A stretch of 64,000 nt of DNA from a bacterium (GTDB lineage Bacteria > Armatimonadota > Zipacnadia > Zipacnadales > UBA11051): positions 124,001 through 188,000 of the forward strand of contig JAJFUB010000085.1 of NCBI GenBank assembly GCA_021372615.1, given 5' to 3'. The notes beneath the pieces are model-generated. The model worked only from the letters and a program-made list of their open reading frames with translations. It searched no databases and had not been told where the DNA came from. Positions 23,511 to 38,921 of this stretch are shown in pieces. Position numbers and translations under genes: made by a program. Numbering within the stretch: the stretch's first letter is position 1; every line of letters begins with the position of its first letter.

Positions 23511-24296
23511 TCAACCCACCCGTAGCTCGCGGTGGATCGCGGCCCGCAGGCGCGCCGTGGCCTGCGTGTGGATCTGGCACACGCGGGATTCCGTTACCCC
23601 CATGATCTGACCGATCTCCTTGAGTGTCAGCTCCTGCTCATAGTACAGACTCATTATGGTACGTTCACGTTCTGGAAGCCCCCCCACCGCCTGTGCCACC
23701 AGCCGCCGCAACTCCGCCTTCTCCACGATCGCCAGCGGGTCGGCAAAGTCCTCGGACGGCTCGCCCGGAGCATAGTCGCTGGTCTCGTACGGCTCCTCGC
23801 CCGCCAACAGCTCTTCCAGCGAGGCCACCGAGGCCGTGCTGGCCTCCGACAGGAAGCGATGGTACTGCTCCAGCGTCATCTCCATCGCCTCGGCGACTTC
23901 CTCTTCCTCGGGGGCCCGGACGAGCTGCGCCTCCAGTTGGCTGACGACCTCGGCCAACTGCCGCAGGCGCCGCCGCATGCTACGCGGCGCCCAGTCCTTG
24001 GCCCGCAGCGACTCCATGACCTCCCCACGCACCACCGTCGTCGCGTAGGTCTCGAACTTCACCCCCCGCCCGGGGTCGAAGCGGTCCACGGCCTTGATGA
24101 GCCCGAGGATGCCGGCCGACACCAGGTCCTCGCGGTCCACGTTGGCCGGCAGTTGGGTGCTGATCCGCCCCACCACGTACTTGACGATGTGCACGTGGTC
24201 GCGAATGGTCTGCTCGCGCAAGGCGGGCGTGCCGCACCAGGATACTGCCACCTGCGAGGTCGCGGGTGGCCTCAGGGCCACTGCTGCCAAGGCCAT
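23511..24296 (-). CDS. fliA: FliA/WhiG-type RNA polymerase sigma factor
   Basis: An alternative sigma factor of the flagellar class, 261 residues. Region 2 is visible (VDREDLVSAGILGLIKAVDRFDPGRGVKFETYA), as is region 4 (LPERERTIMSLYYEQELTLKEIGQIMGVTESRVCQI). Its ATG shares one base with the flhA stop (TGATG), so it is translationally coupled to the export genes. In flagellar systems this factor drives late filament genes and is held by FlgM; no flgM or flagellin gene is present in the window. A TTG one codon earlier is an alternative start. Confidence 0.92.
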   Translation of the reverse strand: MALAAVALRPPATSQVAVSWCGTPALREQTIRDHVHIVKYVVGRISTQLPANVDREDLVSAGILGLIKAVDRFDPGRGVKFETYATTVVRGEVMESLRAKDWAPRSMRRRLRQLAEVVSQLEAQLVRAPEEEEVAEAMEMTLEQYHRFLSEASTASVASLEELLAGEEPYETSDYAPGEPSEDFADPLAIVEKAELRRLVAQAVGGLPERERTIMSLYYEQELTLKEIGQIMGVTESRVCQIHTQATARLRAAIHRELRVG

Positions 24297-26290
24297 CAAC
24301 TCCCCGCCGCCGGTGCCGCCACCGGACCGGTCTCGTATTCGGGCAGCGCGCCCATGCTCAGCACTTCGGTGAGCGGCAGCAACTCGCCCGCGCGCACCAC
24401 TGCCACCACGGCGCCCGCTTCCCGTGCCAACTCCGCCACCGCCGGCCGCAGCTCAGGCGGACACAGGACTACGGCCCCCGTGGCCGACTCCGCATGCTGC
24501 CGCTGGGCCCGGCGCAGCGCCTCGCGCCAGTGCTCGGCCCGCTCGGGGGGCAAGGCCACCGCCGCCCCGTCGCCCGCCGCCTGCATAGCGGTCCGCAGCT
24601 CCTGCTGCATCCCCTCGGTCAGTGCCAGCGCGCAGAGCGTTCCTTCGGGCGCCACCAGCCGCGTGATGGTCCGCTGCAGTGCCGGGCGCACGCGCTCGGC
24701 CAGGTCGGCCGCCGGCCCCGCCTCCGCTATCGCCTCCAGCAGCGATACGCGCTCCACAAGCGGCACCCGCTCGGCCAGCAGCGCCCGACCCACCTGCCGC
24801 AACTCCTGCTCTGTCAGGCCGGCTGCCTCGTAGGCCCGCGCCACGGCCGGATGGCTCACGCGCACCATCTCCAGCAGTTCGTGCGCCCGCTGCAGGTCGA
24901 ACAACTCGGGGGCCGCCCCCGACAGCGCCGACCGCACGTACAGCGCCAGCGCTTCCCGCGGCGACAGCCGCTGCGTCCCGTCCTCCGCACCAGGATCGTC
25001 ATCGGCCTCGCGCAGCCACGTCGCACGGCGGCCATCGGGCAGGACGACCTGCTCGCCCTCCGGCAGTGCGAGGCTTCGGGCAGGCGCCACGGCCAGTTGC
25101 CGTCCCGGCCGCAGCGGAGCCTGCGCCAGTACGGCGCCGTTGAGGGCGATGGCGAAGTCATGCGGCGGCAGCGTCGGGTCATCACTGACGACGAACGTCG
25201 GCACAGCGAACCCCAGTTCATCGGACAGCGCCACACGCTGCCGGTTCAGCCACTGGATCAGGTCCGGCTGGGCCGTCAGCGACAGCAGGCCGGCGCCCAG
25301 TCGCAACTGCAGCGTCACGGGGGGCTCGGACGCCGGTGCTTCAGGCACGCGCCGCTTCGTGGCATAGTACGCCAGGCCGCCGACGGCGGCAGCGCCGATC
25401 AGCAGGGGCGCACGGCCTGCGCCCGGCGCCAGGGCGACGGCCAGCAGCGCCACGGCGACCGTGACCAGCAACCCGGGTTGCAGCAGCACCCGGCCGAGGC
25501 TCCCGGCGGCATCGGCGGCCCGGGTGCGCGACAGCACCACGGCCGCGCCGGCCATCGTGAGCAGTCCCGGAGCCAGCACGACGATCCCCAGCCCCAGCGA
25601 GAAGACGACGGCCTCCGTCCAGCCCAGCGCCGTCGCCCCGCCCGGCGCCAACGCCGCCAGGGGCGCCACGACCACGATCACGGCGACCGCCAGCATCTCA
25701 CCTCGCAGGAAGCGCGCGGCGCCGTCCATCGCCCCGTAGAAGGCGTTCTGGGTCTGCAACGCCTCGGCCCGGGCCGCCCCGGCCTCCGCCTCCAGCCGGC
25801 CACTGCCCAGAGCCGCGTCCAGCGCCATCTGCTGCCCCGGCAGCGCATCCAGCGCAAAGCGCGCCGCCACCTCCGCCAGGCGCATGAGCCCCAGGCTCAG
25901 GACCACGTACGAGGTCAGCATGAGCAGCCCCAGGGCGACGACACCACCAATGGGGTTCTCGCCTGCGGACGTCAGCATTCCCCCCAGCGTCTGCGCCAGT
26001 GTCCCGACGGTGCCGTAGGCCAGCAGGCTGCGCGCCGCCGCCAACGCCAGCGCCACCCGCACCATGCTGCCCACCACCAGCACCCCCGGCAGCGACGGGA
26101 AGCCCAGCGGCCCCTCCGCCGACAGTGCCACGAGCAGCACCGCCAGACCGAAGGCCAGGCTCGCGGTCAGGAGCAGGTCGAGCACGAAGGGCGGCAGCGG
26201 CAGCAGTAGCACCAGCAGCGCCAACAGGCCCGCCAAAGCCACCAGGTGCTCGCGCGACCAGCGCACCCGCTGCAGGGCACTCCCATTCAT
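24296..26290 (-). CDS. flhA: Flagellar-type export gate protein FlhA
   Basis: A 664-residue type III export gate subunit. The first 300 residues hold about eight membrane helices, with the FHIPEP-region pattern RLAEVAARFALDALPGQQMALDA. The conserved Lys before the Ala-rich part is lost, but Arg and Asp are kept. A cytoplasmic domain from about residue 330 has the usual receptor features, including LTEQELRQVGRALLAERVPL. It is directly downstream of flhB with three bases between. It would bind chaperone-substrate complexes and couple the proton-motive force to export. Confidence 0.92.
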   Translation of the reverse strand: MNGSALQRVRWSREHLVALAGLLALLVLLLPLPPFVLDLLLTASLAFGLAVLLVALSAEGPLGFPSLPGVLVVGSMVRVALALAAARSLLAYGTVGTLAQTLGGMLTSAGENPIGGVVALGLLMLTSYVVLSLGLMRLAEVAARFALDALPGQQMALDAALGSGRLEAEAGAARAEALQTQNAFYGAMDGAARFLRGEMLAVAVIVVVAPLAALAPGGATALGWTEAVVFSLGLGIVVLAPGLLTMAGAAVVLSRTRAADAAGSLGRVLLQPGLLVTVAVALLAVALAPGAGRAPLLIGAAAVGGLAYYATKRRVPEAPASEPPVTLQLRLGAGLLSLTAQPDLIQWLNRQRVALSDELGFAVPTFVVSDDPTLPPHDFAIALNGAVLAQAPLRPGRQLAVAPARSLALPEGEQVVLPDGRRATWLREADDDPGAEDGTQRLSPREALALYVRSALSGAAPELFDLQRAHELLEMVRVSHPAVARAYEAAGLTEQELRQVGRALLAERVPLVERVSLLEAIAEAGPAADLAERVRPALQRTITRLVAPEGTLCALALTEGMQQELRTAMQAAGDGAAVALPPERAEHWREALRRAQRQHAESATGAVVLCPPELRPAVAELAREAGAVVAVVRAGELLPLTEVLSMGALPEYETGPVAAPAAGS

Positions 26291-26293
26291 TAC

Positions 26294-27010
26294 TTACGGT
26301 CTCCTTCGCAATCGGTGCTGCAGCCACTCACTGACCCGCCGCCGCTTCAGCCACGCCCCCTCGGTCTCCCGCCGGTCCTCCAGCATCTCGCGGTGGCTCA
26401 TCTGCGCCCGGCTCAGGTAGCTCAGCCGTGTCGCCACACCATGCAGGATCGCCACCGCCACCAGCACCGCCAGCCAGCGCCACCACAACGCCAGCGCCCC
26501 CGACGATCCGCGGGGATCGGGCCATGCGGTCTGTGCCGACAGCCCCTGCAGCCAACTGCGGAGCAGCACGGCAAGTGCGCACAGAGCTAATAGGCCCAAC
26601 CAGAACGACATCACAGAGAAACGGGGACGACTTGCGCCGGCATCGTGAGTCATCGGCAGATACATCTGTTTACTTGAGCGTTGCACAACGCCGCCCTGGG
26701 CGATCTGAGCCAGGAGGGCCACCCCCATTGCCCCCAGGGCCACCAGTGCAACCGCGAGTCCGCCCTGCAGCAGCCGCGTCGCCAGCAGCCCCGGCAGCGC
26801 CGCTGCCTCTACCATCGGGCGCTGCAGATCCTGCGCCAGCAGGCCCGCGAGCCAGCCGCAGAGCCTCCCGCCCAGCAGCACCAGCCCGCCGGTCGCGGCC
26901 ACGATCGCCACGGCCGCCGTCACGGCCGCACTCGCAGGGCTGAGCCCCGTCTGGCGCAGTCGCTCCAGCCGCCGGGGCGTCGCAGGATAGCGCTTGATCT
27001 CGTCGCTCAT
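26294..27010 (-). CDS. flhB: Truncated FlhB-like export switch protein lacking the NPTH autocleavage domain
   Basis: A 238-residue protein matching only the first two thirds of FlhB (usually 350-380 residues). It has the N-terminal ATPRRLERLRQTG, four hydrophobic spans, and the linker signature MSHREMLEDRRETEG at residues 204-218. It then stops after a basic helix. FlhBC, with the self-cleaving Asn-Pro-Thr-His loop that switches substrate specificity, is entirely absent. There is no room for a frameshifted remnant, since flhA starts three bases later. Gene order fliR-flhB-flhA is otherwise normal. Either the switch is provided by a separate protein or the system has no switch. Confidence 0.85.
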   Translation of the reverse strand: MSDEIKRYPATPRRLERLRQTGLSPASAAVTAAVAIVAATGGLVLLGGRLCGWLAGLLAQDLQRPMVEAAALPGLLATRLLQGGLAVALVALGAMGVALLAQIAQGGVVQRSSKQMYLPMTHDAGASRPRFSVMSFWLGLLALCALAVLLRSWLQGLSAQTAWPDPRGSSGALALWWRWLAVLVAVAILHGVATRLSYLSRAQMSHREMLEDRRETEGAWLKRRRVSEWLQHRLRRRP

Positions 27011-27025
27011 GGCCTCCGTCCGTCA

Positions 27026-27766
27026 TTACCCCAGTGTCGCCAGCCACCGAGCTGTCACGTCGGCCACGACGCTGACCTGGTGCAACAGCACCGCCCCCAG
27101 CAGCGGGGCGACCACGCCCAACGCCAGCAGCGTCACCAGGGCGCGGGCGGCCGGTAGCACCTCCGCCGCCCGCAACTCGGGCAGGACGCGCTGCAGGCTG
27201 CTGACCATCAGGGCAGCCAGCACCGTCCCCAACACCACCGGCCCGGCCAGTTGCAGGAGCCCCGTGAAGAACAGGCTAGGCCAATACACCCACGAGGCCG
27301 CTGCCGTCAGGTCGGCGGCCTGCCCCGGCGGCAGCAGGACATATGACTGCCGGAAGAACGCGACGAGCCAGTGCAGGCCGTTGAGCTGCACGAAGAACAC
27401 CAGAACCAGCACGGTGAAGAGCCCCGCCAGCGGTCCGTCCTCCTCGTCCGCGGCGGCGAAGCCGCCCACCACGTCCTGCAGGTGCCCGGCAGCGAATGCC
27501 CCCCACACCAGCAGCCAGAGCCCGAGACCCATCAGCAGGCCCACCGCCGCCTCGCGCGCCACCGCTGCCACATACTCAGGCATCGTGAGGGCCAGAGGCG
27601 CTCCTGCCGGCGCGATGGCCAGAGCCAGCGGTCCCGTCAGCACCGCCGCCACCGCCAGGCGCAGCGACGGGGGGAAGTGCCGCCACCCCGTGGGCGGCGC
27701 CAGGGCCAGCAGCCCGGCCGCCCGTGCGAACACCAGACCCCACACCGGCCACAGGGCAGGCATCAT
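27026..27766 (-). CDS. fliR: Flagellar-type export apparatus protein FliR
   Basis: A 246-residue membrane protein with five to six hydrophobic spans. Family-like segments are LWPVWGLVFARAAGLL at the start and FVQLNGLHWLVAFFRQSY in the middle (the FliR gate region). FliR forms the export gate with FliP and FliQ in the inner membrane. Its ATG overlaps the fliQ stop (ATGA), and flhB follows by 15 bases. Confidence 0.9.
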   Translation of the reverse strand: MMPALWPVWGLVFARAAGLLALAPPTGWRHFPPSLRLAVAAVLTGPLALAIAPAGAPLALTMPEYVAAVAREAAVGLLMGLGLWLLVWGAFAAGHLQDVVGGFAAADEEDGPLAGLFTVLVLVFFVQLNGLHWLVAFFRQSYVLLPPGQAADLTAAASWVYWPSLFFTGLLQLAGPVVLGTVLAALMVSSLQRVLPELRAAEVLPAARALVTLLALGVVAPLLGAVLLHQVSVVADVTARWLATLG

Positions 27767-28038
27767 CGCGCGTGCACCAGGGAGGCGGCCGCCAGCCAGA
27801 GCGAGCCCCAGTAGCCGCACGACAGGCTCAGCATCCACGCCCCGAACAGCGCCAGCGCCACGCCTGCCGCCAGGAGCTTCGGCGCCAGGAGACTGCTCTG
27901 GTCGCTGAGCCCCAGGAGGTTCTGTAGGTAGGCGCCCAGCAGTCCGGCGGCCACAATCGCCGCCAGCAGCGGCAGCGACAACCACAGGGCCATCAGCAGT
28001 GCGTTCTGGAGCAGTGCGCTCCCGGCAGCCCAGTACAT
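27763..28038 (-). CDS. fliQ: Flagellar-type export apparatus protein FliQ
   Basis: A 91-residue protein with two membrane helices, the usual size. The central AAIVAAGLLGAYLQNLLGLSDQS fits the FliQ signature. It is the first gene after the inserted opposite-strand lipoprotein gene, so fliQ and the genes after it may need their own promoter. No convincing minus-strand promoter is seen in 28039-28188. Confidence 0.88.
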   Translation of the reverse strand: MYWAAGSALLQNALLMALWLSLPLLAAIVAAGLLGAYLQNLLGLSDQSSLLAPKLLAAGVALALFGAWMLSLSCGYWGSLWLAAASLVHAR

Positions 28039-28066
28039 GCGGTCTGCCCTCGCTTCCTAACGCGCA

Positions 28067-28095
28067 TTGATTTTTGGGGCGCTATGTGTCACAAT
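28067..28095 (+). promoter_or_regulatory. Promoter of the inserted lipoprotein gene
   Basis: TTGATT, a 17-base spacer and CACAAT lie about 95 bases before the lipoprotein ATG, on the plus strand. It points away from fliQ. Confidence 0.45.
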
Positions 28096-28188
28096 GCCCG
28101 ACGTCCTTCGGCCGCCCTGCCGCGCGGGCCGCCGCGTAACCCGCCCCCGGACCGTTCCGGCTTCCGGGCCCCATGAGGTGAACGACGC

Positions 28189-29037
28189 ATGGCTGCGCGC
28201 TTGCTGTGCATCATGGCTTTGCTGGCGGTCGTGCTCCTGAGCGGCTGCGGTGGCGGCGACAGCGACCCTGTGCTCATCGCGGGCAACTACTTTCCTCTCA
28301 CCGTCGGCGCGGTGTGGGTCTACAACACCATACTCGAGGCGGAGACCCCCACCGATGAGTTCACCACGACCGGCACCATGACGCGGACGCTGGTGGGGAC
28401 CCAGGACCTCCAGGTGGACGGAGCGACGGCCACCACGTACGTCTTCCGCCACGACTACACGACCAACGCCGTCCCCGACCTCACCGGCGGCGCGTCCGTG
28501 GACGTCGCCCCCTTTATCAACCATCTGTTTGCGGCCGACGGCGGCCTGCATTCGGTGCTGGCCTGCTACCGCACAGTGGCCGCCACCGCCGATACGCCGG
28601 CCCACATTGAGGTGGTCGCCGTAGCGCGCGTGGGTGAAGCAAACGTGTCGGTGCCCGAACCGCGCCCCTTCCTGTACAACCCGCCCTACCAGGGCACCAT
28701 GCACAATGGCAGCACCTGGTTTGTGCCCATGCCCCTGATGCCGTTCATCACCGAGATGACTGGCTTCGAGCAGAACGACAAGACGCTCAACTATGGTGTC
28801 CTCGGCGGCATTGGCGATGCCGCCAACACCATCGTCAACATCAGCTACTACGCCGCCGATCTGAACGTGGACGGCAGCACCGCCGCTATCGCCGGGCGCG
28901 GTCGCAACTACTGCAAGGATGGCGTCGGCTTCTGGGGCGGTGAGGTCCAGAGCGACTGGTACGCCACCATCAACGTCCACGGCAACACCTCGCGCGTGAC
29001 CTCGCAGGCCGAGCTTGTGTCCTTCACCATGCCCTGA
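28189..29037 (+). CDS. Predicted lipoprotein inserted antisense into the export operon
   Basis: A 282-residue protein with a lipoprotein signal (MAARLLCIMALLAVVLLSGC, lipobox LSGC) followed by a Gly/Asp linker and a beta-rich domain starting with YFPLTVGAVWVYN, a pattern seen in secreted beta-barrel-like repeats of unknown role. I do not recognise the family. It lies between fliP and fliQ on the opposite strand, with its own promoter and terminator-like hairpin. GAGGTG is eight bases before the ATG. Whether it serves the export system or is an unrelated insertion is unknown. Confidence 0.75.
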   Translation: MAARLLCIMALLAVVLLSGCGGGDSDPVLIAGNYFPLTVGAVWVYNTILEAETPTDEFTTTGTMTRTLVGTQDLQVDGATATTYVFRHDYTTNAVPDLTGGASVDVAPFINHLFAADGGLHSVLACYRTVAATADTPAHIEVVAVARVGEANVSVPEPRPFLYNPPYQGTMHNGSTWFVPMPLMPFITEMTGFEQNDKTLNYGVLGGIGDAANTIVNISYYAADLNVDGSTAAIAGRGRNYCKDGVGFWGGEVQSDWYATINVHGNTSRVTSQAELVSFTMP

Positions 29038-29067
29038 CTTCCATACGGGTAGGAGATGCCGTGTGCG

Positions 29068-29100
29068 GGGCGAGGCTTCGGCCTCGCCCTGTTCCGCTAC
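29068..29100. terminator. UUCG hairpin with GTAG foot between the lipoprotein gene and fliP
   Basis: A nine-base stem GGGCGAGGC/GCCTCGCCC with a TTCG loop lies between two convergent stop codons and can serve both. On the minus strand GTAG (29100-29097) lies seven bases before the stem, and its TAG is the fliP stop codon, as in the REP elements. Confidence 0.65.
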
Positions 29101-29819
29101 TGGAGGCTGCTCAGCAGCGCGTACGCCAGCAGTCGCCACCCATCCACCATCACAAACAGCAGCACTTTGAACGGCAGCGCGACGACTGACGCGGGCAGGG
29201 ACACTAGCCCCAGCGAGGCCACCGTGCCCGCCACCACCAGGTCGATCACCACGAACGGCAGATAGATCACAAGGCCGATGATGAACGCCGCCCGCAGCTC
29301 CGAGATGGCGTAGGCGGCGGCCAGCGTGTGGAGCGCCGGCAGCCCTTGCGGTGCGGGCGACGGCTCGAACCCCTGGAACAGCCGCAGGTCCTCCACCCGG
29401 GTGTGGGCCGTCAGGAACGCCCGCGACGGCGCCTGTGTCGCCTCCCAGGCCGCCCCGAGGCTCATCTCCCCGGCCAGTAGTGGCTGCGCCGCGCGGTCGT
29501 TGATCTCGCGCAACGTGCCGGACATGCTGAAGGCAGTGAGCAGAAGAGCGAGGCCGATCAGGACGGGGTTGGGGATGAGCGGTTGGGAACTTAGCCCTGC
29601 CCGCAGGAAGAACAGCACGATCACGATGCGGGCGAAAGAGGTCATGACGGCGAGCAGCGCCGGCGCCAGCGACACCGACGCGAACAGCAGGATCAGCCGC
29701 AGGTAGGACGTGGCGTCCGTCGCCCCGAGGTTGACTGCCACCGGGGCGCCGCCACGCGCACTCGCCGCCGAAGCGCAACCGAGGACGACTACCGCCACGG
29801 CGAGCCAGCGCGCTCTCAC
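29097..29819 (-). CDS. fliP: Flagellar-type export apparatus protein FliP
   Basis: A 240-residue protein with a signal-type N-terminus (cleavage near ASA) and later membrane helices. Conserved segments include VMTSFARIVIVLFFLR, GLALLLTAFSM, and ALPFKVLLFVMVDGW near the C-terminus. It forms the core of the export gate with FliQ and FliR. Its ATG overlaps the fliO stop (ATGA). Normally fliQ follows at once; here a foreign gene on the other strand separates them. Confidence 0.92.
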   Translation of the reverse strand: MRARWLAVAVVVLGCASAASARGGAPVAVNLGATDATSYLRLILLFASVSLAPALLAVMTSFARIVIVLFFLRAGLSSQPLIPNPVLIGLALLLTAFSMSGTLREINDRAAQPLLAGEMSLGAAWEATQAPSRAFLTAHTRVEDLRLFQGFEPSPAPQGLPALHTLAAAYAISELRAAFIIGLVIYLPFVVIDLVVAGTVASLGLVSLPASVVALPFKVLLFVMVDGWRLLAYALLSSLQ

Positions 29820-30202
29820 CGGGCATCGCCCTCTTCCCCATCGTCGACGGACGCGGCTGGCACCTCCGGCGGCACTTCAGTCGCCGCCACCCCTCCGGGG
29901 CCACAGGTCAGCGCCAACAGTTTCCGCCCCACGCGCACCACGTGGAGCACATAGCCCCCGTGCAGGGGCACCGACTGCAGCAACTCCGCCGGGCCGGACG
30001 GCGCCGCGCCCATGCATCCCGGCCCCACGCGCCGCAGCAGCCAGTACACGCCGTAGATGAGAGCGATGACCAGCGCCAGGCTCAGCAGCGCTTGGAGCAG
30101 GTAGTGGCCGGGCGCATAGGGCAGCCCCGGCGTGGGCGCTGCCGGCTGGGCCGAGGCCACGGCGCAGACAGCCCCCGCGAATCCGATGGCACTTAGCCTC
30201 AT
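29816..30202 (-). CDS. fliO: Flagellar-type assembly protein FliO
   Basis: A 128-residue protein with a signal peptide (cleavage near ASAQP), a short periplasmic part, one membrane helix (LLSLALVIALIYGVYWLLR) and a small cytoplasmic domain with LLQSVPLHGGYVLHVVRVGRKLLAL, typical of FliO. FliO stabilises FliP during gate assembly. The tail is acidic. Gene order fliN-fliO-fliP is standard. Confidence 0.85.
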   Translation of the reverse strand: MRLSAIGFAGAVCAVASAQPAAPTPGLPYAPGHYLLQALLSLALVIALIYGVYWLLRRVGPGCMGAAPSGPAELLQSVPLHGGYVLHVVRVGRKLLALTCGPGGVAATEVPPEVPAASVDDGEEGDAR

Positions 30203-30203
30203 G

Positions 30204-30506
30204 TCACAGCCCCGAGGCCGAGACCTGCGTGATCCGCACTCCCAGGTCGTTGTCCACTCGCACCAGCTCCCCCAGGGCGATGACCCGGTCGCCCACCATG
30301 ATCTCCGCGGGTTCGCCCACTTCCCGGTCGAGCAGCAGCACGGAGCCGACCTCCAGTTCGAGCAGTTCGCGCAGGGCCAGTCGGGTTGACCCCAGGCGCA
30401 CCGTCACCTGCAGCGGGACCTCTGACAGCGCCGTCAGTTGCGGCTCCGTCGCAGGCTGGAACTGATCCGCCATCCTTACCGGCACATCCGTGTCATACAA
30501 AGCCAC
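30204..30506 (-). CDS. fliN: Flagellar switch/C-ring protein FliN
   Basis: A 100-residue protein consisting essentially of one SpoA (FliMN_C) domain: LSEVPLQVTVRLGSTRLALRELLELEVGS, then VGDRVIALGELVRVDNDLGVRI, a close FliN match. The GTG at 30506 has GGGAGG at seven bases upstream and overlaps the fliM end; an ATG at 30473 would give 89 residues. FliN forms the base of the C-ring and docks FliH for export. Confidence 0.88.
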   Translation of the reverse strand: MALYDTDVPVRMADQFQPATEPQLTALSEVPLQVTVRLGSTRLALRELLELEVGSVLLLDREVGEPAEIMVGDRVIALGELVRVDNDLGVRITQVSASGL

Positions 30507-30508
30507 TG

Positions 30509-31312
30509 TCACGCCTCCCTGCCCCCCTCCACATGCTGGATGCTGATGGCCAGCGTCGCGCCTTTGGCGCCAATGCGTCCCCACGCCACGGGCGCGCCGT
30601 TGGCCCGGAGAATGCTCTGCTGATCGCCAGCTCCGAGAGCCAGCACGTCCCCCGGCTGCATCTCCAGCAACTCGCGCGGCGTCACCGGCGGCGCCACCAC
30701 GACAGCTTCCACCACCACCGGCGCGTCGGCGAGTTCCTCCCGCTGCAGTCGCTGCCCCCCCTCGGGCGGCGTGAGACACGCGCGCAGGTCGGCCCACGGC
30801 ACTGTCAGTACCACCTCGCCGCCAGCGGGGCCGTGCGCCACGTGCATCCGCCACGCCACCACTGCCTCCGCACCCGCCGGGACAGGGCCCCGGGCCAGCA
30901 CCGGGCTCGGGGGGCTTCCGGCCAGACGCAGCTCCCGCCCGAGGTCTGCAGCAAGTGCCCGGGCGGGCAACTGCAACAGGCGCAGGTCCAGATCGGTGAG
31001 GGCGTGCTCGGCTAGTTCGTCCTGCCCCAGTTGCGCCGCCAGCAGCGCCGTCGTGGCCGTGGGCGACAGCAGCAGCCGCCAGGCCCCCCCGTGCGGCCAT
31101 GTGGCGGCGACAGCCCAGAAGCCCGCCTCGAGCCGCCGGGGTTGCCAGTCCGGCTCGGGGGCCGGCGTACAGGTCACCCCGAACGAGGCGAAGGCTGCCA
31201 CCAGCAAGTGCTGCACCCGGGCCCCGAGGACTTGCAGGGAGGCCTCCTGGGCATGCGAGGGTGCCTCGACCGACGGCGGCTCGTAGCGCTGGGCGACATC
31301 GCTTGTAGGCAT
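30509..31312 (-). CDS. fliM: FliM-like C-ring protein without the CheY-binding peptide
   Basis: A 267-residue protein, shorter than usual (about 330). The C-terminal SpoA domain is clear (EELADAPVVVEAVVVAPPVTPRELLEMQPGDVLAL). The middle part resembles the CheC-like FliM core only weakly. The N-terminus (PTSDVAQRYEPPSVE) lacks the LSQDEIDALL-like motif that binds phosphorylated CheY. It is in the usual place before fliN. FliY or a SctQ-like protein are alternatives. Confidence 0.7.
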   Translation of the reverse strand: MPTSDVAQRYEPPSVEAPSHAQEASLQVLGARVQHLLVAAFASFGVTCTPAPEPDWQPRRLEAGFWAVAATWPHGGAWRLLLSPTATTALLAAQLGQDELAEHALTDLDLRLLQLPARALAADLGRELRLAGSPPSPVLARGPVPAGAEAVVAWRMHVAHGPAGGEVVLTVPWADLRACLTPPEGGQRLQREELADAPVVVEAVVVAPPVTPRELLEMQPGDVLALGAGDQQSILRANGAPVAWGRIGAKGATLAISIQHVEGGREA

Positions 31313-31317
31313 GGGCT

Positions 31318-31728
31318 CTACTCCGGCGCATAGCGCTGTGCGTGTTCGTCAGCGAGGGCCTGCTTCTGGCGCTGCTGGCGCGCTCGCCGTCCTTCGGCCA
31401 GCCGACCGATCAGGCGCTCGAGAGTCCGGCGCGTCTGGGCCACCCGCCGCCACCTGAGGCGGTCTGTCGCCACCCGGCCCCGGGCCTCGCGCAGGGCCTG
31501 CTGCAACTCCTGACACTGCCGTTCCACCAGAGCGGCATAGCGGTCACGATGGCAGAGCGCCGCCGCGGTGCCGGCTTCCGCCAGCGGGCGGCGTGCTTGC
31601 GCGGCCTGCAACTCCCCCTCGACCTGCCGGCAGGCCAGCAGACTGCGCTCGACTTCGCCTTGCAGGGCGCGCTCCTGGCCCGCGATGGACCGGAGCAGCC
31701 GTCCGAACCGTGCGGCGGAGTCAGGCAT
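31318..31728 (-). CDS. fliJ: FliJ-like coiled-coil export chaperone
   Basis: A 136-residue, almost entirely helical protein rich in Arg, Gln, Glu and Ala. Heptads are visible through ALREARGRVATDRLRWRRVAQTRR. Sequence identity to FliJ is low, but the length, composition and position (after fliI, overlapping by 8 bases) match. FliJ sits in the ATPase ring like the gamma subunit of F1. Confidence 0.72.
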   Translation of the reverse strand: MPDSAARFGRLLRSIAGQERALQGEVERSLLACRQVEGELQAAQARRPLAEAGTAAALCHRDRYAALVERQCQELQQALREARGRVATDRLRWRRVAQTRRTLERLIGRLAEGRRARQQRQKQALADEHAQRYAPE

Positions 31729-33121
31729 GTGCCACCTGCCTCTCCCCGTCCCCAGCCGGCCCCATGAGCGCCAGCAGCCGCCGCCGGGCGTCGGACGGAT
31801 CGGCGTATTCGTGCTGCCCCTGTCGCAGGAACTGCATCATGTCCGGTCGCCGGCGGACCGCCAGATCGGCCAGCGGGCGCGCCCCGGGACGGTAGGCACC
31901 CACAGCGATCAGGTCCTCGACCTCGCGGTGCGCCGCCAACAGCTCTCGGAAGGCCGCCGCGGCCTGGGTGTGCGGCTCGTCCACCAGGCGGGACATCAGC
32001 CGCGAGACGCTGCCGCTGACATCCACGGCCGGGTAGTGCCCCCGGTCGGCCAACTCGCGGGTCAGGTGGATGTGGCCGTCGAGGATGGCACTGACCGCAT
32101 CGGCCACCGGCTCCTGCAGGTCATCCCCCTCCACCAGCACGGCATAGACGCCGGTGATGCTGCCGGTCGCCCCGCTGCCGGCGCGCTCCAGCAGCCGCGC
32201 CAGGAACTCGTACATGGAGGCGGGGTAGCCGCGCGTGGTGGGCGCCTCCCCGGCCGCCAGACCGACCTCGCGCTGCGCCCGGGCCAGCCGCGTCAGCGAG
32301 TCCACAATCAGCAACACATCGAGGCCCTGGTCCCGGAAGTGCTCGGCGATGGTCGTGGCCGTCAGCCCGGCGGCGATGCGCACCAGGGCCGGCTCGTCCG
32401 ACGTCGCCGCCACGACGACCGAGCGCGCCAGACCCTCGCCGAGGTTGACCTCCAGAAAATCGCGCACCTCACGCCCCCGCTCGCCGACCAGCCCCACGAC
32501 GGCCACGTCCGCGGTGTGATAGCGCGCCATCATGCCCAGCAGCGAACTCTTGCCGACCCCCGCGCCCGAGAAGATGCCCAGGCGCTGCCCCTTGCCACAG
32601 GTCAGCAGCGTGTCCACGGCGCGCACGCCGAAGTGCAGCGGCTCGACGATGCACTGCCGCCCCAAAGGCGGCGGGGGAGCGCTCTCGACGGGGCGCAGCA
32701 CCGTCTCTCCCAGATCGCCCTTGCCATCGATAGGGCGACCGAAGGCATCCAGAACCCGCCCCAGAATGCCACGACCGATGGGCACGCTCAGCGCCCGCCC
32801 CGTCGCCGTCACCGGGCAGCCGGGGGCCACGCCGCCCATGCGCCCCAGCGGCAGCAGCAGCGTGTAACCGTGCCGGAAGCCGACCACCTGCGCCGCGATC
32901 TCCGGCGCGCTGTCGGTGGGGCGGATGTGGCAGATCTCCCCCACGCGCGCGGCCGGGCCTTCAGCCAGGACCGTATGGCCCGACACCTCGGCGACCTTGC
33001 CCGTGGCCCGCATCCGGGGCAAGCCCGACACTCGCGCGGCCAGAGCCCGCAGCCGCTCGCGCTCCTGTGTGATGGTCGCCGCCGACTCAGCCGCCGCGTA
33101 CGCGCACATGACCTCATCCAT
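31721..33121 (-). CDS. fliI: Flagellar-type export ATPase FliI
   Basis: A 466-residue ATPase homologous to F1-beta. It has the Walker A loop GIFSGAGVGKSSLLGMM, GERGREVRDFLE, Walker B DVLLIVDSLTRLARAQREV, and PASMYEFLARLLERAG, diagnostic of FliI. The catalytic Glu is in GERGRE. The chosen ATG overlaps the fliH stop by eight bases; the ORF extends upstream through fliH in another frame. It unfolds and releases export substrates from their chaperones. Confidence 0.94.
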   Translation of the reverse strand: MDEVMCAYAAAESAATITQERERLRALAARVSGLPRMRATGKVAEVSGHTVLAEGPAARVGEICHIRPTDSAPEIAAQVVGFRHGYTLLLPLGRMGGVAPGCPVTATGRALSVPIGRGILGRVLDAFGRPIDGKGDLGETVLRPVESAPPPPLGRQCIVEPLHFGVRAVDTLLTCGKGQRLGIFSGAGVGKSSLLGMMARYHTADVAVVGLVGERGREVRDFLEVNLGEGLARSVVVAATSDEPALVRIAAGLTATTIAEHFRDQGLDVLLIVDSLTRLARAQREVGLAAGEAPTTRGYPASMYEFLARLLERAGSGATGSITGVYAVLVEGDDLQEPVADAVSAILDGHIHLTRELADRGHYPAVDVSGSVSRLMSRLVDEPHTQAAAAFRELLAAHREVEDLIAVGAYRPGARPLADLAVRRRPDMMQFLRQGQHEYADPSDARRRLLALMGPAGDGERQVAHA

Positions 33122-33653
33122 TGTACGAAGCCGCCAGGGCCTCGCGCAGAGTGGCCAACTGGGTCTGCAAGGTGGCGTCGAAGCCTCCCCGGTCGCTATC
33201 GAGGCGACAGCCGCCGCGCTCGATGCTCGGGTCGGCGATGAACTCCAGTTGCGCCGCCTGCTCCTGCCAGGCGGCCTGGTGCTCCTGCAGGTGCGCCAGA
33301 TCATCCGGATGCAGGCGCGCCACGATCTTCGTCGCGAAGTGCAGGTTCTGCAGGGCTTGCGCCAGTGTGTGCTCGATGACTGTGGGGTCGGCCGTGACCT
33401 CGTGGCGGACGATCTCGCGGGCGACGGACAGGGCCAGTTCGAGGATCTCGGGCCTGATCTGCATGAGGAGCCGCGCCCGCTCCTGCACCATCTCCTCGGC
33501 GATGCGCCCCAGCAGCCGCAAGTGTCGCTCCGGGTCGCCGGCGTCCGGCGGCGCCGGCGCGGCGAGCGTGCGGGCAGGCTCGATCTCCTCGTGGAAGGGG
33601 CGGATCGTCCCCACCTTGCCCTGCAGTTCGCTCTGCCGCAGCAGTCCGCGCAT
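33114..33653 (-). CDS. fliH: FliH-like ATPase regulator
   Basis: A 179-residue protein with a helical centre (GRIAEEMVQERARLLMQIRPEILELALSVAREIVRHEV), the FliH/HrpE signature, and the C-terminal half LHPDDLAHLQEH then EFIADPSIERGGCRLDSDRGGFDATLQTQL. It binds FliI and links it to FliN. Slightly shorter than average because the glycine-rich N-terminal helix is missing. Confidence 0.87.
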   Translation of the reverse strand: MRGLLRQSELQGKVGTIRPFHEEIEPARTLAAPAPPDAGDPERHLRLLGRIAEEMVQERARLLMQIRPEILELALSVAREIVRHEVTADPTVIEHTLAQALQNLHFATKIVARLHPDDLAHLQEHQAAWQEQAAQLEFIADPSIERGGCRLDSDRGGFDATLQTQLATLREALAASYNG

Positions 33654-33675
33654 CGTCTCTTGCCCTTCGCGTGCT

Positions 33676-34509
33676 CTAGGTGCCTGTGTTGAGGCGCTCC
33701 TGCAACTCGTGCACGAGCGCCCGCGCCACGCGGGCGTCCGTCGGCCGCGTGGGAAGCCCGACCTCGACCTGCCGCCGTCCCAACTCCCGCTGCAGCCAGC
33801 GGCCGGCCCGTGGACCGGCGAGGCTCACCACCAGCCCGCGCACTTCCGGCCGCTCGCCCTGCAGTAGACCTGCCAGGCGGCCACCGTCACGCAGGATCAG
33901 CGCGTCCAGTGGGTCGTCGGGCTGGCGTCTCCACCCTCGCCTCAGCACCGCCGCGACCCCGACGGCGATCACCAGCGCCGTCCCGACGAGCGCGCCCGGC
34001 AAGAGCGGGCCCAGTGGCGCCGTCACGTCCCCTCGCCGCTCGGCCTGCACCTGCCCCCGCGTCACGAGCATCCGGCCATCGGCCGAGGCGATGTTGAGTC
34101 GTTCGGGGGCCAGGCCAGGGACCGCACCGAGGATGAGTTGCACGAGGCTCTGGAGCGTTCGCAGGTCGAGGGTCTCCCCGGGGCGTAGCTGCACCACGAT
34201 CTGAGCGCTCAGATCGCGGCCTGCTTCACCGGAGAGCAGCACTTCGCTCTTCTGGATCGGGCGGAAGCCACGGAGCAGGGCGGTGAGCTGGCGGTCCAGG
34301 GCCGCATTGGCCACCGGCAGGGCAAACGGCGCTGGAGCGAAGCTGAAGGGGTTGGGGGGCGTGGCAGAGCTTGGCGCAGCAGCGGGGGTAGTACGCGTGA
34401 CGGCAGGCCCCGCCAGGACCTGCGTGGTCTGAGAACCGACAACGATGAGATACAGAGAAGCGACCAACAGCCCCCGCGCGCACCGTTCCCGGATGCGCAG
34501 TACGGTCAT
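33676..34509 (-). CDS. Reduced FliF-like ring protein with FliG-like C-terminal tail
   Basis: A 277-residue protein, half the length of FliF. An N-terminal hydrophobic segment (12-33, signal or anchor) is followed by a Pro/Ala-rich linker. One ring-building motif (68-150) ends with LVQLILGAVPGLAPERLNIASADGR, matching RBM2 of FliF/YscJ. A membrane helix (166-189) follows. The cytoplasmic tail (205-272, LAGLLQGERPEVRGLVVSLAGPRAG) resembles the middle domain of FliG (EHPQ motif as ERPE). RBM1, RBM3/beta-collar and FliG's torque helix are missing. It sits where fliF-fliG would be and starts the operon, preceded by GGGGGA. The FliG resemblance is my reading and weaker than the FliF one. SctJ-like protein is an alternative name. 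Confidence 0.65.
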   Translation of the reverse strand: MTVLRIRERCARGLLVASLYLIVVGSQTTQVLAGPAVTRTTPAAAPSSATPPNPFSFAPAPFALPVANAALDRQLTALLRGFRPIQKSEVLLSGEAGRDLSAQIVVQLRPGETLDLRTLQSLVQLILGAVPGLAPERLNIASADGRMLVTRGQVQAERRGDVTAPLGPLLPGALVGTALVIAVGVAAVLRRGWRRQPDDPLDALILRDGGRLAGLLQGERPEVRGLVVSLAGPRAGRWLQRELGRRQVEVGLPTRPTDARVARALVHELQERLNTGT

Positions 34510-34602: not shown

Positions 34603-35982
34603 TTAGCCTGCCATTGCTTCTACCTCATCGGACAGTGTCTCCACGAACGCCTCGACCACTGGGCCGCTCAGCTTCGTCTCCACGCAGGACCGCAGTTCCA
34701 CCACGGCGACGTCCGGCGACAGCGCGGGCCGATAGGACCGTTCCGAGGTCATGGCATCGTAGCTGTCGCACACGGCGATGATCCGCGAGGCCAGGGGGAT
34801 CTCCTCCTGGCGCAGGCCGAAGGGATAGCCGCTGCCGTCGCCGCGCTCGTGGTGGTAGCGTATGCCACCCACCAGGTGTTGTAGCTGCGGGATGCAGTTG
34901 ATGATTCCCGCGCCCTGCTCGGGATGGCTGCGGATGGCTTCCCACTCCTCCCCCGTCAGGCGCCCCGTCTTGCACAGCACCGTCCGCTCGATCCCGATCT
35001 TGCCGATGTCGTGCACAATGCCGGACATGTAGACAGCCTCGGCCTCGCGGTCGGGCAGCCCCAGAAGGCGGGCCGTGTGTCGCGCTGCCTGGGCCACGCG
35101 GCGGGAGTGGCCGCAGGTGTAGGCGTCCTTGATCTCGATGGCGGCCACCAGGGCCTGGATCGTGTTGAGGAACATGCCGCGCAGGTCGTCCACCAGACTG
35201 CGGTTGCGGAGGGCCAGGGCGGCCTGGTGTCCGGCGGCCTGCACCAGCTTCGCTTCGCGCGAGGTGAACGGGCGCCCGGCGTCGCGCGCCAGCGCCATCA
35301 GCCCACTCCACCGCTCATCACGCTGCAGGCCACTGACGAGCACCTGGCGATCCTGCAGGGGCAGAGCGAAGGGCTCTCGCCCCGCCGGCAGCCGCTTGGC
35401 CGACGGCGCCAGGTATCCCCGGATGGCCTCCATCTCCTCGTCCGACATGCCCTGAATCGCCAGCGGCTGCACTCCCCGGGACTTGTCCAGACACAGAAGG
35501 CAGGCCCCGTCAGCCCCGGCCGCCGCAGCCACGCGCGACAGCAGGGCCTGTGCCATCTCTTCACGCGAACTGGGCAGGCTGATGGTCTCCATGATCCCGT
35601 ACGCGATAGCCAGTTCCTGGTAGGTCGCCGTCAGCTCCCGCACGGTAGCCTCGACGTCCTCAGCGGCCCGCACATGGCACTCGAAAGCATGGGTGAGAGC
35701 ACCCATGATCTCGGGGGCCGGCTGGCGAGCCGAGCCCGCGTAGCAGGCCCGCAGCGACAGGTCCGCCGAGCCGGCCACAGGGGCCTCGGCCGCCGCAGGG
35801 CAGGCCCCGTCGGCCTCGACGAGCGGGCAGGCCCCGGGACGCACGCACGTAGGAAGCACAGGCGGCAACACCCCCCGAACTCGCTCGCGTCCGTCAGAGT
35901 ACACCGCCCAGTACAGCCCCAGCGCACACGACAGGTGGGCCAGGGCCACCGAGAAGTCATCGTTCCCGCGGTTGGCGATCAT
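34603..35982 (-). CDS. GAF and HD-GYP domain protein (probable c-di-GMP phosphodiesterase)
   Basis: A 459-residue signalling protein. After a Cys-rich N-terminal region (about 1-100, CVRPGACPL and others, possibly metal- or redox-binding) come a helix and a GAF domain (about 125-270). The HD-GYP domain follows, with HSRRVAQAARH, GIVHDIGKIGI, YHHERGDGSGYPFGL and SRIIAVCDSYDAMTSERSYR. All metal ligands of an HD-GYP hydrolase are present, so it likely degrades cyclic di-GMP. It is placed between the response regulator and the export operon. Confidence 0.88.
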   Translation of the reverse strand: MIANRGNDDFSVALAHLSCALGLYWAVYSDGRERVRGVLPPVLPTCVRPGACPLVEADGACPAAAEAPVAGSADLSLRACYAGSARQPAPEIMGALTHAFECHVRAAEDVEATVRELTATYQELAIAYGIMETISLPSSREEMAQALLSRVAAAAGADGACLLCLDKSRGVQPLAIQGMSDEEMEAIRGYLAPSAKRLPAGREPFALPLQDRQVLVSGLQRDERWSGLMALARDAGRPFTSREAKLVQAAGHQAALALRNRSLVDDLRGMFLNTIQALVAAIEIKDAYTCGHSRRVAQAARHTARLLGLPDREAEAVYMSGIVHDIGKIGIERTVLCKTGRLTGEEWEAIRSHPEQGAGIINCIPQLQHLVGGIRYHHERGDGSGYPFGLRQEEIPLASRIIAVCDSYDAMTSERSYRPALSPDVAVVELRSCVETKLSGPVVEAFVETLSDEVEAMAG

Positions 35983-35991
35983 GGCCCTGCT

Positions 35992-36474
35992 TCACACCCC
36001 GTCCACCAGCGCGACCAGCGCCCGCGGGTCAGGCGGCTTGGTCAGCACTCCATTGATGTACGGCCGCAGGTCCTGCATGACTTCGGCTTCGGCTAGAATG
36101 CCCGTCAGTACGCAGATGCGCGTGCGCTCCAGACCCGGCACGGCCCGCAGAGCGCGGCAGACTTCGGCCGCAGGCGGCCCGGGCATTTTGAGGTCAATGA
36201 TGATGAGGGCGGGCAGGACTTCGCTTGCCAGGTCGAGGGCCTCCTGCCCGTCGCGCGCGGCGTACACCCGGACACACCGCGCCTCCCGGAGGATGCAAGC
36301 CACGGCCCGGCACACGAAGATGTCGTCATCCACCACCAGCACGACGGGCTGATGGGTGGCCGGCGCTTCCTCGGCCAGGTGGTGCAGATGCAGTACGCCG
36401 CGGTCGGCGCCGCCCTCGGGCGGCCTCCCCCGGGCATTCTGTACGTCCCGTTTCGGGATGGCTTCGGCGGACAT
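35992..36474 (-). CDS. Single-domain response regulator (CheY-like)
   Basis: A 160-residue protein with an intact receiver after a 40-residue polar N-terminal extension: VVLVVDDDIFVC (acidic pocket), phospho-Asp in LIIIDLKMPG, Thr in ICVLTG and Lys in GVLTKPPDP. No output domain. The start ATG comes two bases after the stop of the kinase-like gene, and the HD-GYP gene follows 9 bases later, so the three form one unit. Confidence 0.9.
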   Translation of the reverse strand: MSAEAIPKRDVQNARGRPPEGGADRGVLHLHHLAEEAPATHQPVVLVVDDDIFVCRAVACILREARCVRVYAARDGQEALDLASEVLPALIIIDLKMPGPPAAEVCRALRAVPGLERTRICVLTGILAEAEVMQDLRPYINGVLTKPPDPRALVALVDGV

Positions 36475-36476
36475 GG

Positions 36477-37226
36477 CTAGGCCGATCTCTCCAGACGACT
36501 GTCTTCCAGCACACCGCGCACCCGGCCGACCCGCGGCAGGCGAAGCTGCAGACACATCCCGCAGCCGGTCTCCAGCGTCGCTTCGCCGCCGCGCTGGCGC
36601 ACCAGCACTTCCGCGGCCCGGAAGGCGAAGCTCTCGGCGGCGCGGGACGGCTCACAGCGCGCGCTCGACAGCTCCACGGTCACTTCCTCCTCGGACGTCT
36701 CCGTGACTGTCACCATCAGACACGCGTTGCCTTTGGCGGCTTCCAGGGCGGTCTCGAGCACGGCCGTGAGCAGTTGCTGCAGCACCCCCTGGGGCCAGAT
36801 GACCATCGTCTCGGCCGGCCGCTGCCAATCCACCCGGAAGTCCTGGAGCTGGATCACGTCCTGCAGATCGGCCAGGGCAGCGTCCACCGCCAGACCCAGG
36901 TCCACCTCGTCGAGGTCATCCGACAACGGCGGGGCCGCCAACGCCAGGAAGCTGGAGGCCAACCGGCCCAGACGGCGCGCCTCCGCCAGGATGGTGTAGG
37001 CATACGACTCCCGCACGCTCGGCTCCAGGTTCGGCAGCCAGGCCAGGCATTCGGCGTAGCTGCAGATGGCCGTCAGCGGTGAGCGGATGTCGTGGTCCAT
37101 CTGCCGTGCCAGCGTCGGAAAGCTGTTATCGCCGGGGAAGTAATGCCCCCGACTGTCCAGGATCATCCGCATCAATGCACCCCAGCTGCCCCCAACCAGG
37201 GGGGAGTCGGTAGCCTTATCGGCCAC
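36477..37226 (-). CDS. Histidine kinase-like protein with degenerate ATPase domain
   Basis: A 249-residue soluble protein. The dimerisation and phosphoacceptor site is clear: RQMDHDIRSPLTAICSYAE (His in the H-box near residue 45). The following ATPase-like part lacks a recognisable N-box Asn and the DxGxG G1 box; only a final hydrophobic strand pattern (CGMCLQLRLP) remains. It may act as a phosphotransfer protein or bind another kinase. Adjacent to a single-domain response regulator. Confidence 0.7.
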   Translation of the reverse strand: MADKATDSPLVGGSWGALMRMILDSRGHYFPGDNSFPTLARQMDHDIRSPLTAICSYAECLAWLPNLEPSVRESYAYTILAEARRLGRLASSFLALAAPPLSDDLDEVDLGLAVDAALADLQDVIQLQDFRVDWQRPAETMVIWPQGVLQQLLTAVLETALEAAKGNACLMVTVTETSEEEVTVELSSARCEPSRAAESFAFRAAEVLVRQRGGEATLETGCGMCLQLRLPRVGRVRGVLEDSRLERSA

Positions 37227-37280
37227 CTCACTCGGGCACTTGAGGGAGAGTTGAGCAGTATGCGACGCGGGAGTGACTGT

Positions 37281-38507: not shown

Positions 38508-38921
38508 CTACGGCTCCTTCTGGCGGAGGCTGGCGATGAGGCCCTTCAGCATGCGGGCCACTTCGTCGGCCGACTCGATGAGTGCGCACAACGCGGCGGG
38601 CGGGGCCAGCCCGAGGCTCTGCGCCAACAGCAGATGGCTCTGCAACTCGCACACTGAACCGTGGGCGATGTGCAGGAACTGGATGTACTCCCTGCGACTG
38701 CCACGGCCGCAGCCTTCGGCGATACTGGCCGGTACTGAGGCAGCCGCTTCCTTCGTCTGGCGTCCCAGCCCCCACTGATCCTCGCGGGGGTACGTACGCA
38801 CGGTCTCGCCCACAGCGACGGCAACGTCAAAAGCCTTCTGCCAGACTCCGAGTTCGCGAAACGAGTTCAGCACGACGCCCCCCGATGCAGGGCGGTCAAG
38901 GTCGCTGCTGTTACCCTCCAC
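38508..38921 (-). CDS. Four-helix bundle protein (23S rRNA intervening-sequence/Avd-like family)
   Basis: A 137-residue protein with the family pattern FRELGVWQKAFDVAVAV, then SVPASIAEGCGRGSRREYIQFLHIA and GSVCELQSHLLLA. Related proteins are encoded in intervening sequences of 23S rRNA genes, as free-standing genes, and (Avd) in diversity-generating retroelements. Function is mostly unknown. It uses a GTG start inside the right flanking repeat; a GTG 16 codons later (before LNSFREL) is equally plausible. The gene is flanked by inverted heptamer arrays, which suggests mobility. Confidence 0.8.
   Translation of the reverse strand: MEGNSSDLDRPASGGVVLNSFRELGVWQKAFDVAVAVGETVRTYPREDQWGLGRQTKEAAASVPASIAEGCGRGSRREYIQFLHIAHGSVCELQSHLLLAQSLGLAPPAALCALIESADEVARMLKGLIASLRQKEP

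Follow-up and report, generated by a model that had tools for sequence, protein, structure and literature searches.

The window analysed here is a 64,000-nt stretch of a genome from the class Zipacnadia of the Armatimonadota (assembly GCA_021372615.1, contig JAJFUB010000085.1, positions 124,001 to 188,000 of the forward strand), and it carries an operon of flagellar-type export genes. From position 34509 to 23511 along the minus strand these are fliF-like, fliH, fliI, fliJ, fliM-like, fliN, fliO, fliP, fliQ, fliR, flhB, flhA and a sigma factor gene (Table 1). The same identities and order, given in a preliminary description made from the sequence alone, were borne out by matches to Pfam and TIGR profiles. 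The operon encodes the FliP/FliQ/FliR/FlhA gate together with the FliI ATPase, by which a type III export apparatus is recognised. Most of the neighbouring genes abut or overlap, as had been described; the exception is the fliP-fliQ interval of 1,058 bp (fliP ends at 29097, fliQ starts at 28038), which holds a lipoprotein open reading frame (ORF) on the opposite strand. For comparison we used 46 genomes of the class (G000 to G045, where G000 is the genome of the window), grouped into families (f1, f3 and so on).

Table 1. Features of the export operon and its upstream region in the window
Feature	Position	Strand	Evidence
sigma-28-type promoter CAAGTGCCCGAGTGAGGTGGCCGATA	37217..37242	-	before the HK-RR-HD-GYP-fliF operon (HK, histidine kinase; RR, response regulator)
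HisKA-type histidine kinase, first gene of likely operon	36477..37226	-	Pfam HisKA 1.9e-7; same place in G001
response regulator receiver	35992..36555	-	Pfam Response_reg 1.6e-15
GAF + HD-GYP protein, cyclic di-GMP phosphodiesterase type	34603..35982	-	Pfam HD_5 1.9e-31
ring protein, transmembrane helix - FliF RBM2 - transmembrane helix - FliG middle domain	33676..34509	-	Pfam YscJ_FliF positions 109-177 only
FliH-like ATPase stator/regulator	33114..33653	-	Pfam FliH 6.9e-26
FliI-type ATPase	31721..33304 (ORF)	-	TIGR03497/TIGR01026
FliJ-like	31318..31728	-	PF02050 2e-6; TIGR02473 1.4e-8
FliM-derived C-ring protein, degenerate middle domain + SpoA domain	30509..31312	-	Pfam FliMN_C 1.3e-12; hhalign
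FliN-like SpoA protein	30204..30470	-	TIGR02480 2.1e-23
FliO-like	29816..30202	-	TIGR03500 2.1e-7
FliP	29097..29819	-	Pfam FliP 1.7e-57
lipoprotein ORF between fliP and fliQ	28189..29037	+	no Pfam match; tblastn/blastp to relatives
FliQ	27763..28038	-	Pfam Bac_export_3 1.2e-10
FliR	27026..27985 (ORF)	-	Pfam Bac_export_1 5.9e-26
FlhB, membrane domain only	26294..27010	-	Pfam Bac_export_2 positions 3-243 of 335
FlhA, divergent clade	24296..26290	-	Pfam FHIPEP 5.2e-101
FliA/WhiG-family sigma factor (sigma-28 type)	23511..24299	-	TIGR02479 250.6 bits, cut-off 189.6

The ring protein matches the second half of YscJ_FliF only, that is, ring-building motif 2 (RBM2), and its relatives do likewise. When the tail of the protein was compared with the FliG middle domain (FliG_M) using hhalign, a match of 97.2% with an E-value of 2.8e-11 was obtained, vs. 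40.7% for FliG_C and 20.8% for FliG_N; none of 22 further families exceeded 4.5%, and the reversed tail gave 0.3%. The tail commonly reads ERPE where FliG_M has EHPQ. An AlphaFold2 model of the window protein, built from the single sequence with no alignment (mean predicted local distance difference test score 62.8), is only moderately well resolved in RBM2 and in the C-terminal helices. Residues 58-151 of the model could be superimposed on FliF RBM2 with a Z score of 14.2, and residues 189-277 on residues 95-189 of full-length FliG (3hjl) with a Z score of 8.4 over 88 residues (root-mean-square deviation 4.5). For a helical bundle the latter score is not conclusive, but the matched range coincides with the domain identified by profile comparison. 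By profile and model, then, the ring protein consists of FliF RBM2 and a transmembrane helix, to which the FliG middle domain is joined, and RBM1, RBM3, FliG_N and FliG_C are missing from it. The preliminary description had counted fliG among the absent genes, which stands for its C-terminal domain, unmatched in the whole genome, but not for its middle domain, which persists at the C-terminus of FliF. RBM1 and RBM3 are the parts of FliF that build the collar around the rod. The fusion would join the membrane ring directly to FliM and the C-ring with no FliG motor domain between them; such a ring could therefore hold the ATPase sorting platform and would not be able to produce torque.

FlhB is shortened too. 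All 20 divergent FlhB proteins examined end just after a linker of the form MS..E..E.R.TEG and none of them (0/20) contains the NPTH motif, which is present in 58 ordinary FlhB/SctU proteins of the same comparison set; the cytoplasmic autocleavage domain is therefore absent throughout. This switch domain is the docking site for early substrates. Without it the export core cannot be called complete in the usual sense, as it had been at first. The domain losses fall specifically on the torque, switch and rod-collar domains. The FliM-like protein aligned with residues 107-317 of flagellar FliM at an hhalign E-value of 4.4e-14, vs. 2.7e-6 for SctQ, where the alignment covers SpoA only; it is therefore regarded as FliM-derived, with a degenerate middle domain.

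The genome of the window (6.4 Mb in 171 contigs, 96.7% complete) was then searched for the remaining parts of a flagellum. It gave no match to the profiles for rod and hook proteins (Flg_bb_rod, with 4-6 matches in most flagellated sister genomes), the FliG_C torque domain, flagellin or the MotB plug of the stator (MotA was not searched), so that no second rod, hook, filament and stator set was found with these profiles. Each of these profiles matches sister genomes of the same family, which served as a positive control. The only FliF and the only FlhB of the genome are those of the operon, and FHIPEP has one match. FliE, FliK, FlgD and FliD were not seen within the operon, and no genome-wide search was made for them. 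It appears very improbable that the operon belongs to a true flagellum and that the rod, hook, filament and stator proteins have become too divergent for profiles to detect: FliO, a FliA-type sigma factor and FlgM (see below) are retained and FliE, FliK, FlgD, FliD and MotA were outside the search, but sister genomes of this family have flagella that these profiles do detect, and FliG_C, FliF RBM3 and the FlhB switch domain are gone from proteins that are otherwise present. Neither does the operon include a recognisable secretin. Three secretin matches occur elsewhere in the genome: the first belongs to a Tad-type locus that includes a CpaF-type T2SSE, the second lies downstream of PilM, and the third is short and unassigned. 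SctD, needle and translocon proteins were not recognised in the operon, and no genome-wide search was made for these.

The divergent system, recognised by its FlhA, FlhB or FliF, occurs in 28 of the 46 class genomes, 13 of which have no Flg_bb_rod match and 15 of which also carry flagellar rod and hook genes. FlhA of the divergent type was found in 24 of 291 genomes of the phylum, all belonging to this class, with E-values from 1e-274 to 8.7e-220; the next match, at 2.4e-177, is a flagellar FlhA. Among named records, a single-protein query gave no relative and an alignment query gave ordinary flagellar FlhA proteins only; the flagellar FlhA of G048, from a different class of the phylum, has its best named match in Fimbriimonadales (60% identity), which points to Armatimonadota. 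Gene order is conserved in about 20 operons. It is kept in families f1, f5, f7 and f8, while several f3 genomes have the operon split into F-H-I-J-M, N-O-P-Q-R-B and A-sigma. The same architecture extends across six families. A search of related genomes for this operon, which had been proposed as a check, thus recovered it both with and without flagella; together with the lack of a second flagellar set in the window's own genome, this supports the earlier suggestion of an export machine rather than a rotating flagellum.

Between genomes G002 and G006 the ratio of nonsynonymous to synonymous substitutions was 0.07-0.26 for FliQ, FliP, FliR, FliI, FliN, FliH and FlhA; values of 0.31-0.55 were obtained for FlhB, the sigma factor, FliF, FliM and the protein at the FliJ position. 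Purifying selection and the conserved operon indicate that the locus is not a relic. The short, divergent parts and a genome that has no flagellum could be read as signs of a flagellar operon that is decaying or cryptic and no longer functions, but a single architecture in six families, its presence beside a flagellum in 15 genomes, the uniform loss of NPTH from the 20 FlhB proteins and the retention of FlgM speak otherwise. We regard decay as hardly credible, and already contradicted by this conservation.

In quick trees of FliP and FliI, which contain some long branches, only 4-6 injectisome rows and no Myxococcales sequences, the divergent proteins form one clade (SH-aLRT 96 and 97, respectively), with the injectisome clade separate (100). 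The FliP tree joins the divergent clade to the phylum's own flagella and those of Firmicutes. FliO, encoded here, is normally absent from injectisomes.

A gene for FlgM, which the preliminary description had named as a protein to look for, lies elsewhere in the same genome and is preceded by a sigma-28-type promoter. The pattern AAGT-N13/14-GCCGATA, which we derived from sites at the operon loci, occurs four times in the 6.4 Mb. One site precedes the kinase-led operon; it overlaps the mechanical start of the kinase ORF, for which reason the true start of the kinase likely lies further downstream. The second precedes the flgM gene (G000:C78). The other two are doubtful and look like chance or are unclear: the site on C90 lies inside an aminotransferase-like gene and that on C68 overlaps the start of another gene. 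A sigma-28-type promoter is found before the same operon in G001 (L130:5748), and in G042 the operon begins with flgM itself, followed by the HD-GYP and fliF genes.

Matches to FlgM were obtained in all 13 genomes that have the operon and no flagellum, and in one of eight genomes with neither system; this one is 67% complete and belongs to a genus that has the operon. Two FlgM matches are present in 12 of the 15 genomes with both systems. A sigma-28-type promoter was found 46-59 nt 5′ of 14 of 21 flgM starts, where about 0.12 would be expected. The N-terminus reads M[RKQ]IDP in 21/21 aligned FlgM sequences, besides the sigma-binding C-terminus, a count that is partly circular because the sequences were picked by that motif. 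In Salmonella the N-terminal part of FlgM carries the export signal. The genome thus encodes a FliA/WhiG-type sigma factor and a FlgM behind a matching promoter, with binding between the two and export of FlgM as predictions. FlgM adds to the locus a regulatory logic that the preliminary description did not have.

FlgM belongs to the late substrates in Salmonella, where the cleaved C-terminal domain of FlhB (CCD) together with Flk holds the apparatus in early mode. In strains with neither rod nor hook and with Flk absent, mutants selected for FlgM secretion were found to be changed in this FlhB domain, many by premature stops, and they release FlgM into the periplasm (PMC13344023). Here the same combination seems to occur by nature, with no rod or hook match, no FlhB switch and both FlgM and the sigma factor kept, and for this reason we propose a late-mode exporter. 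On balance we are somewhat inclined to see in the operon a functional type III exporter of flagellar descent that no longer depends on a flagellum, works in late mode and has FlgM as its best client candidate. As judged from the genes, the gate is FliPQR-FlhA with the FlhB membrane domain, served by FliH-I-J, the reduced FliF ring and FliM/FliN. Since rod-type substrates and the FlhB switch domain are both lacking, this gate should stay in late mode, giving a rod-less inner-membrane exporter whose late-type clients would be released into the periplasm. Foremost among these would be FlgM, which is the anti-sigma factor for the sigma-28-type factor encoded by the operon itself. Its export would free the sigma factor, which would then drive flgM and the operon led by the kinase, response regulator and HD-GYP genes. 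Such a self-reinforcing circuit would report a working exporter and would allow the expression of further cargo. Export, late mode, FlgM as client, the coupling to kinase and HD-GYP and the further cargo are all inferred from sequence and from analogy.

Several points weigh against this proposal. In Salmonella, removal of the FlhB CCD alone does not release FlgM, as loss of Flk is also needed (Flk was not searched here). Secretion is predicted from genes, and the promoter specificity of the sigma factor is assumed from its family. No strict promoter match precedes seven of the 21 flgM genes, although several of these have near matches. FlgM could act solely as a cytoplasmic anti-sigma factor. 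Finally, no outer-membrane exit was found with the operon, and export may therefore end in the periplasm.

Because sigma-28 and FlgM normally time filament genes, the machine might instead export a structural protein yet to be discovered, such as a short filament, a nanotube seed or a pilus-like appendage, with FlgM only as a timer. In G008 a sigma-28-type promoter is followed by a 132-aa helical ORF, with a second FlgM and a sigma-54 gene nearby; G008 and G018 also have in common a 111/117-aa helical protein, in the latter with an NtrC-type activator alongside. Yet a conserved small ORF is not found with the operon, the rod and filament profiles gave no match, and the collar-building RBM1 and RBM3 are absent from FliF, so that we consider a structural cargo possible but rather unlikely.

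The genes 5′ of fliF allow another reading. Kinase, response regulator and GAF/HD-GYP genes likely lie near enough to fliF for co-transcription, as judged from their spacing, and an HD-GYP gene is also found upstream of fliF in G001 and G042. In polar flagellates the flagellar type III secretion system (fT3SS), the MS ring and the rotor signal to flagellar two-component systems (PMC7064773), so that the presence of a kinase and a response regulator next to the operon is suggestive. The complex could accordingly be mainly an assembly-sensing device, in which ring and gate inform the linked kinase, response regulator and HD-GYP protein and export of cargo is secondary. The arrangement of all three genes before fliF in G000 and G001, the HD-GYP gene in G042, the sigma-28-type promoters before them and a kinase-like gene before fliN-flhB in several f3 genomes would fit. 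However, the ATPase complex and FlhA are strongly constrained and would be needless for pure sensing, and no such kinase was seen at the f5 locus; we find this reading improbable.

The late-mode exporter that we propose can be set beside several known systems. With the bacterial flagellum it shares FliHIJ, FliOPQR, FlhA, the FlhB membrane domain, FliF RBM2, FliM/FliN, the gene order, a FliA-type sigma factor and FlgM with a sigma-28-type promoter. It differs in giving no match for rod/hook, filament or stator plug, in lacking FliG_C, RBM1, RBM3 and the FlhB switch domain, in the FliF-FliG_M fusion and in forming a clade of its own beside true flagella in the same genomes. The Salmonella strains lacking rod and hook, Flk and the FlhB CCD (PMC13344023) are alike in these rod, hook and CCD losses and in the presence of FlgM, but they are laboratory mutants with FliG and a full FliF, whereas the operon described here is natural and conserved. 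The injectisome, or non-flagellar type III secretion system (NF-T3SS), has a homologous gate, ATPase and RBM2-type ring domain; in our case there is no secretin at the locus, the clade is separate and the FlhB/SctU switch domain is absent. Abby and Rocha derived injectisomes from the flagellum via a secretin-less intermediate with descendants surviving in Myxococcales (PMC3459982). The Myxococcales NF-T3SS likewise combines a type III export core with no secretin and was argued to translocate across the inner membrane, but it belongs to the injectisome lineage, while the present operon falls in a flagellar-side clade with FliO, a sigma-28-type factor and FlgM. In principle our system resembles that intermediate, and it appears outside the injectisome clade in trees that hold no Myxococcales sequences. 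A hat-like inner-membrane structure (PMC9380563), possibly another non-flagellar use of the fT3SS, is also an inner-membrane complex that needs fT3SS core proteins, but it has so far been seen in flagellated species and its periplasmic part is not FliF.

The preliminary description had drawn a parallel to the cryptic flagellar genes of Chlamydiae. These are a few scattered homologues in bacteria that have no flagellum and also carry an injectisome; flagellar export genes with no flagellum are common to both, but here a full operon with sigma factor and FlgM is found.

The injectisome is the standard example of a flagellum turned into a secretion system. We think it rather probable that the operon represents a third class of type III machine, arising from a second, independent conversion of a flagellum to secretion, spread through the class, often beside a true flagellum, and marked by its own sigma-28/FlgM pair and a FliF-FliG_M ring. 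If so, a second case of independent origin, in which the losses look intermediate and the FlhB switch is deleted by nature, would make it possible to tell the requirements of export from those of rotation and substrate switching. It would also show that the sigma-28/FlgM checkpoint can persist after the flagellum is gone. Surveys that rate genomes by their flagellar genes may wrongly call such bacteria motile. A survey of Armatimonadota reported type III secretion and flagellar parts and distinguished no such system (PMC10290634), and no description of it was found in the open-access literature searched.

As to the remaining features of the locus, the true start of fliI is probably about 80 codons downstream of the ORF start (FliI has 441-456 aa in most relatives), and that of fliR probably about 70 codons downstream. 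The lipoprotein ORF is found at the same place in G001, G002, G004, G005 and G006, that is, in six f1 genomes including that of the window, and may not be part of the machine. Genes downstream of the operon were dismissed as parts of the system: they differ from family to family and are therefore taken as ordinary neighbours, with peptidyl-prolyl isomerase, MazG, S4-domain, pyruvate phosphate dikinase and enolase genes in f1, whereas f5 has secA to one side and genes of the Mur-ligase type and the major facilitator superfamily to the other. A gene of the 23S rRNA-intervening-sequence-protein family (PF05635) is located at 38508-38921, close upstream of the operon region, and G018 and G021 have related genes close to their split fliN-flhB locus. 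In f3 (L022:12793-14816, with equivalents in L026, L032 and L035) genes for a zinc-ribbon protein and an SLT lytic transglycosylase, similar to a flagellar lytic transglycosylase, adjoin flhA-sigma.

Upstream of fliF no conserved small ORF for a substrate was found, and the conserved DNA before f5 fliF (L021, L023, L025, L030, L126, L127) is a separate non-coding unit. It is placed between a Mur-ligase/FolC-type gene and the divergent fliF, has its own TTGAC/TATACT-like promoter and a terminator-like hairpin, and gave no Rfam match at the gathering threshold in the loci scanned; possibly it is a small RNA.

Additional flgM loci were observed in the class. The second FlgM of G008 and G018, both of which have no flagellum, stands beside a sigma-54-like gene (L203:861-3383 and L238:3-4090); the NtrC-type activator of G018 lies at this locus, and the 132-aa ORF of G008 follows its promoter closely. 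In some f3 and f5 loci (L236, L242, L246, L199) flgM comes after zf-HC2 anti-sigma-like and MucB/RseB-like genes, named by eye, and at L236 a gene for an extracytoplasmic function sigma factor was likewise recognised by eye, with no profile. Finally, a sigma-54 (rpoN) gene of G007 begins 32 bp behind a sigma-28-type promoter (L170:1557-2903), and a similar arrangement was seen in G017.

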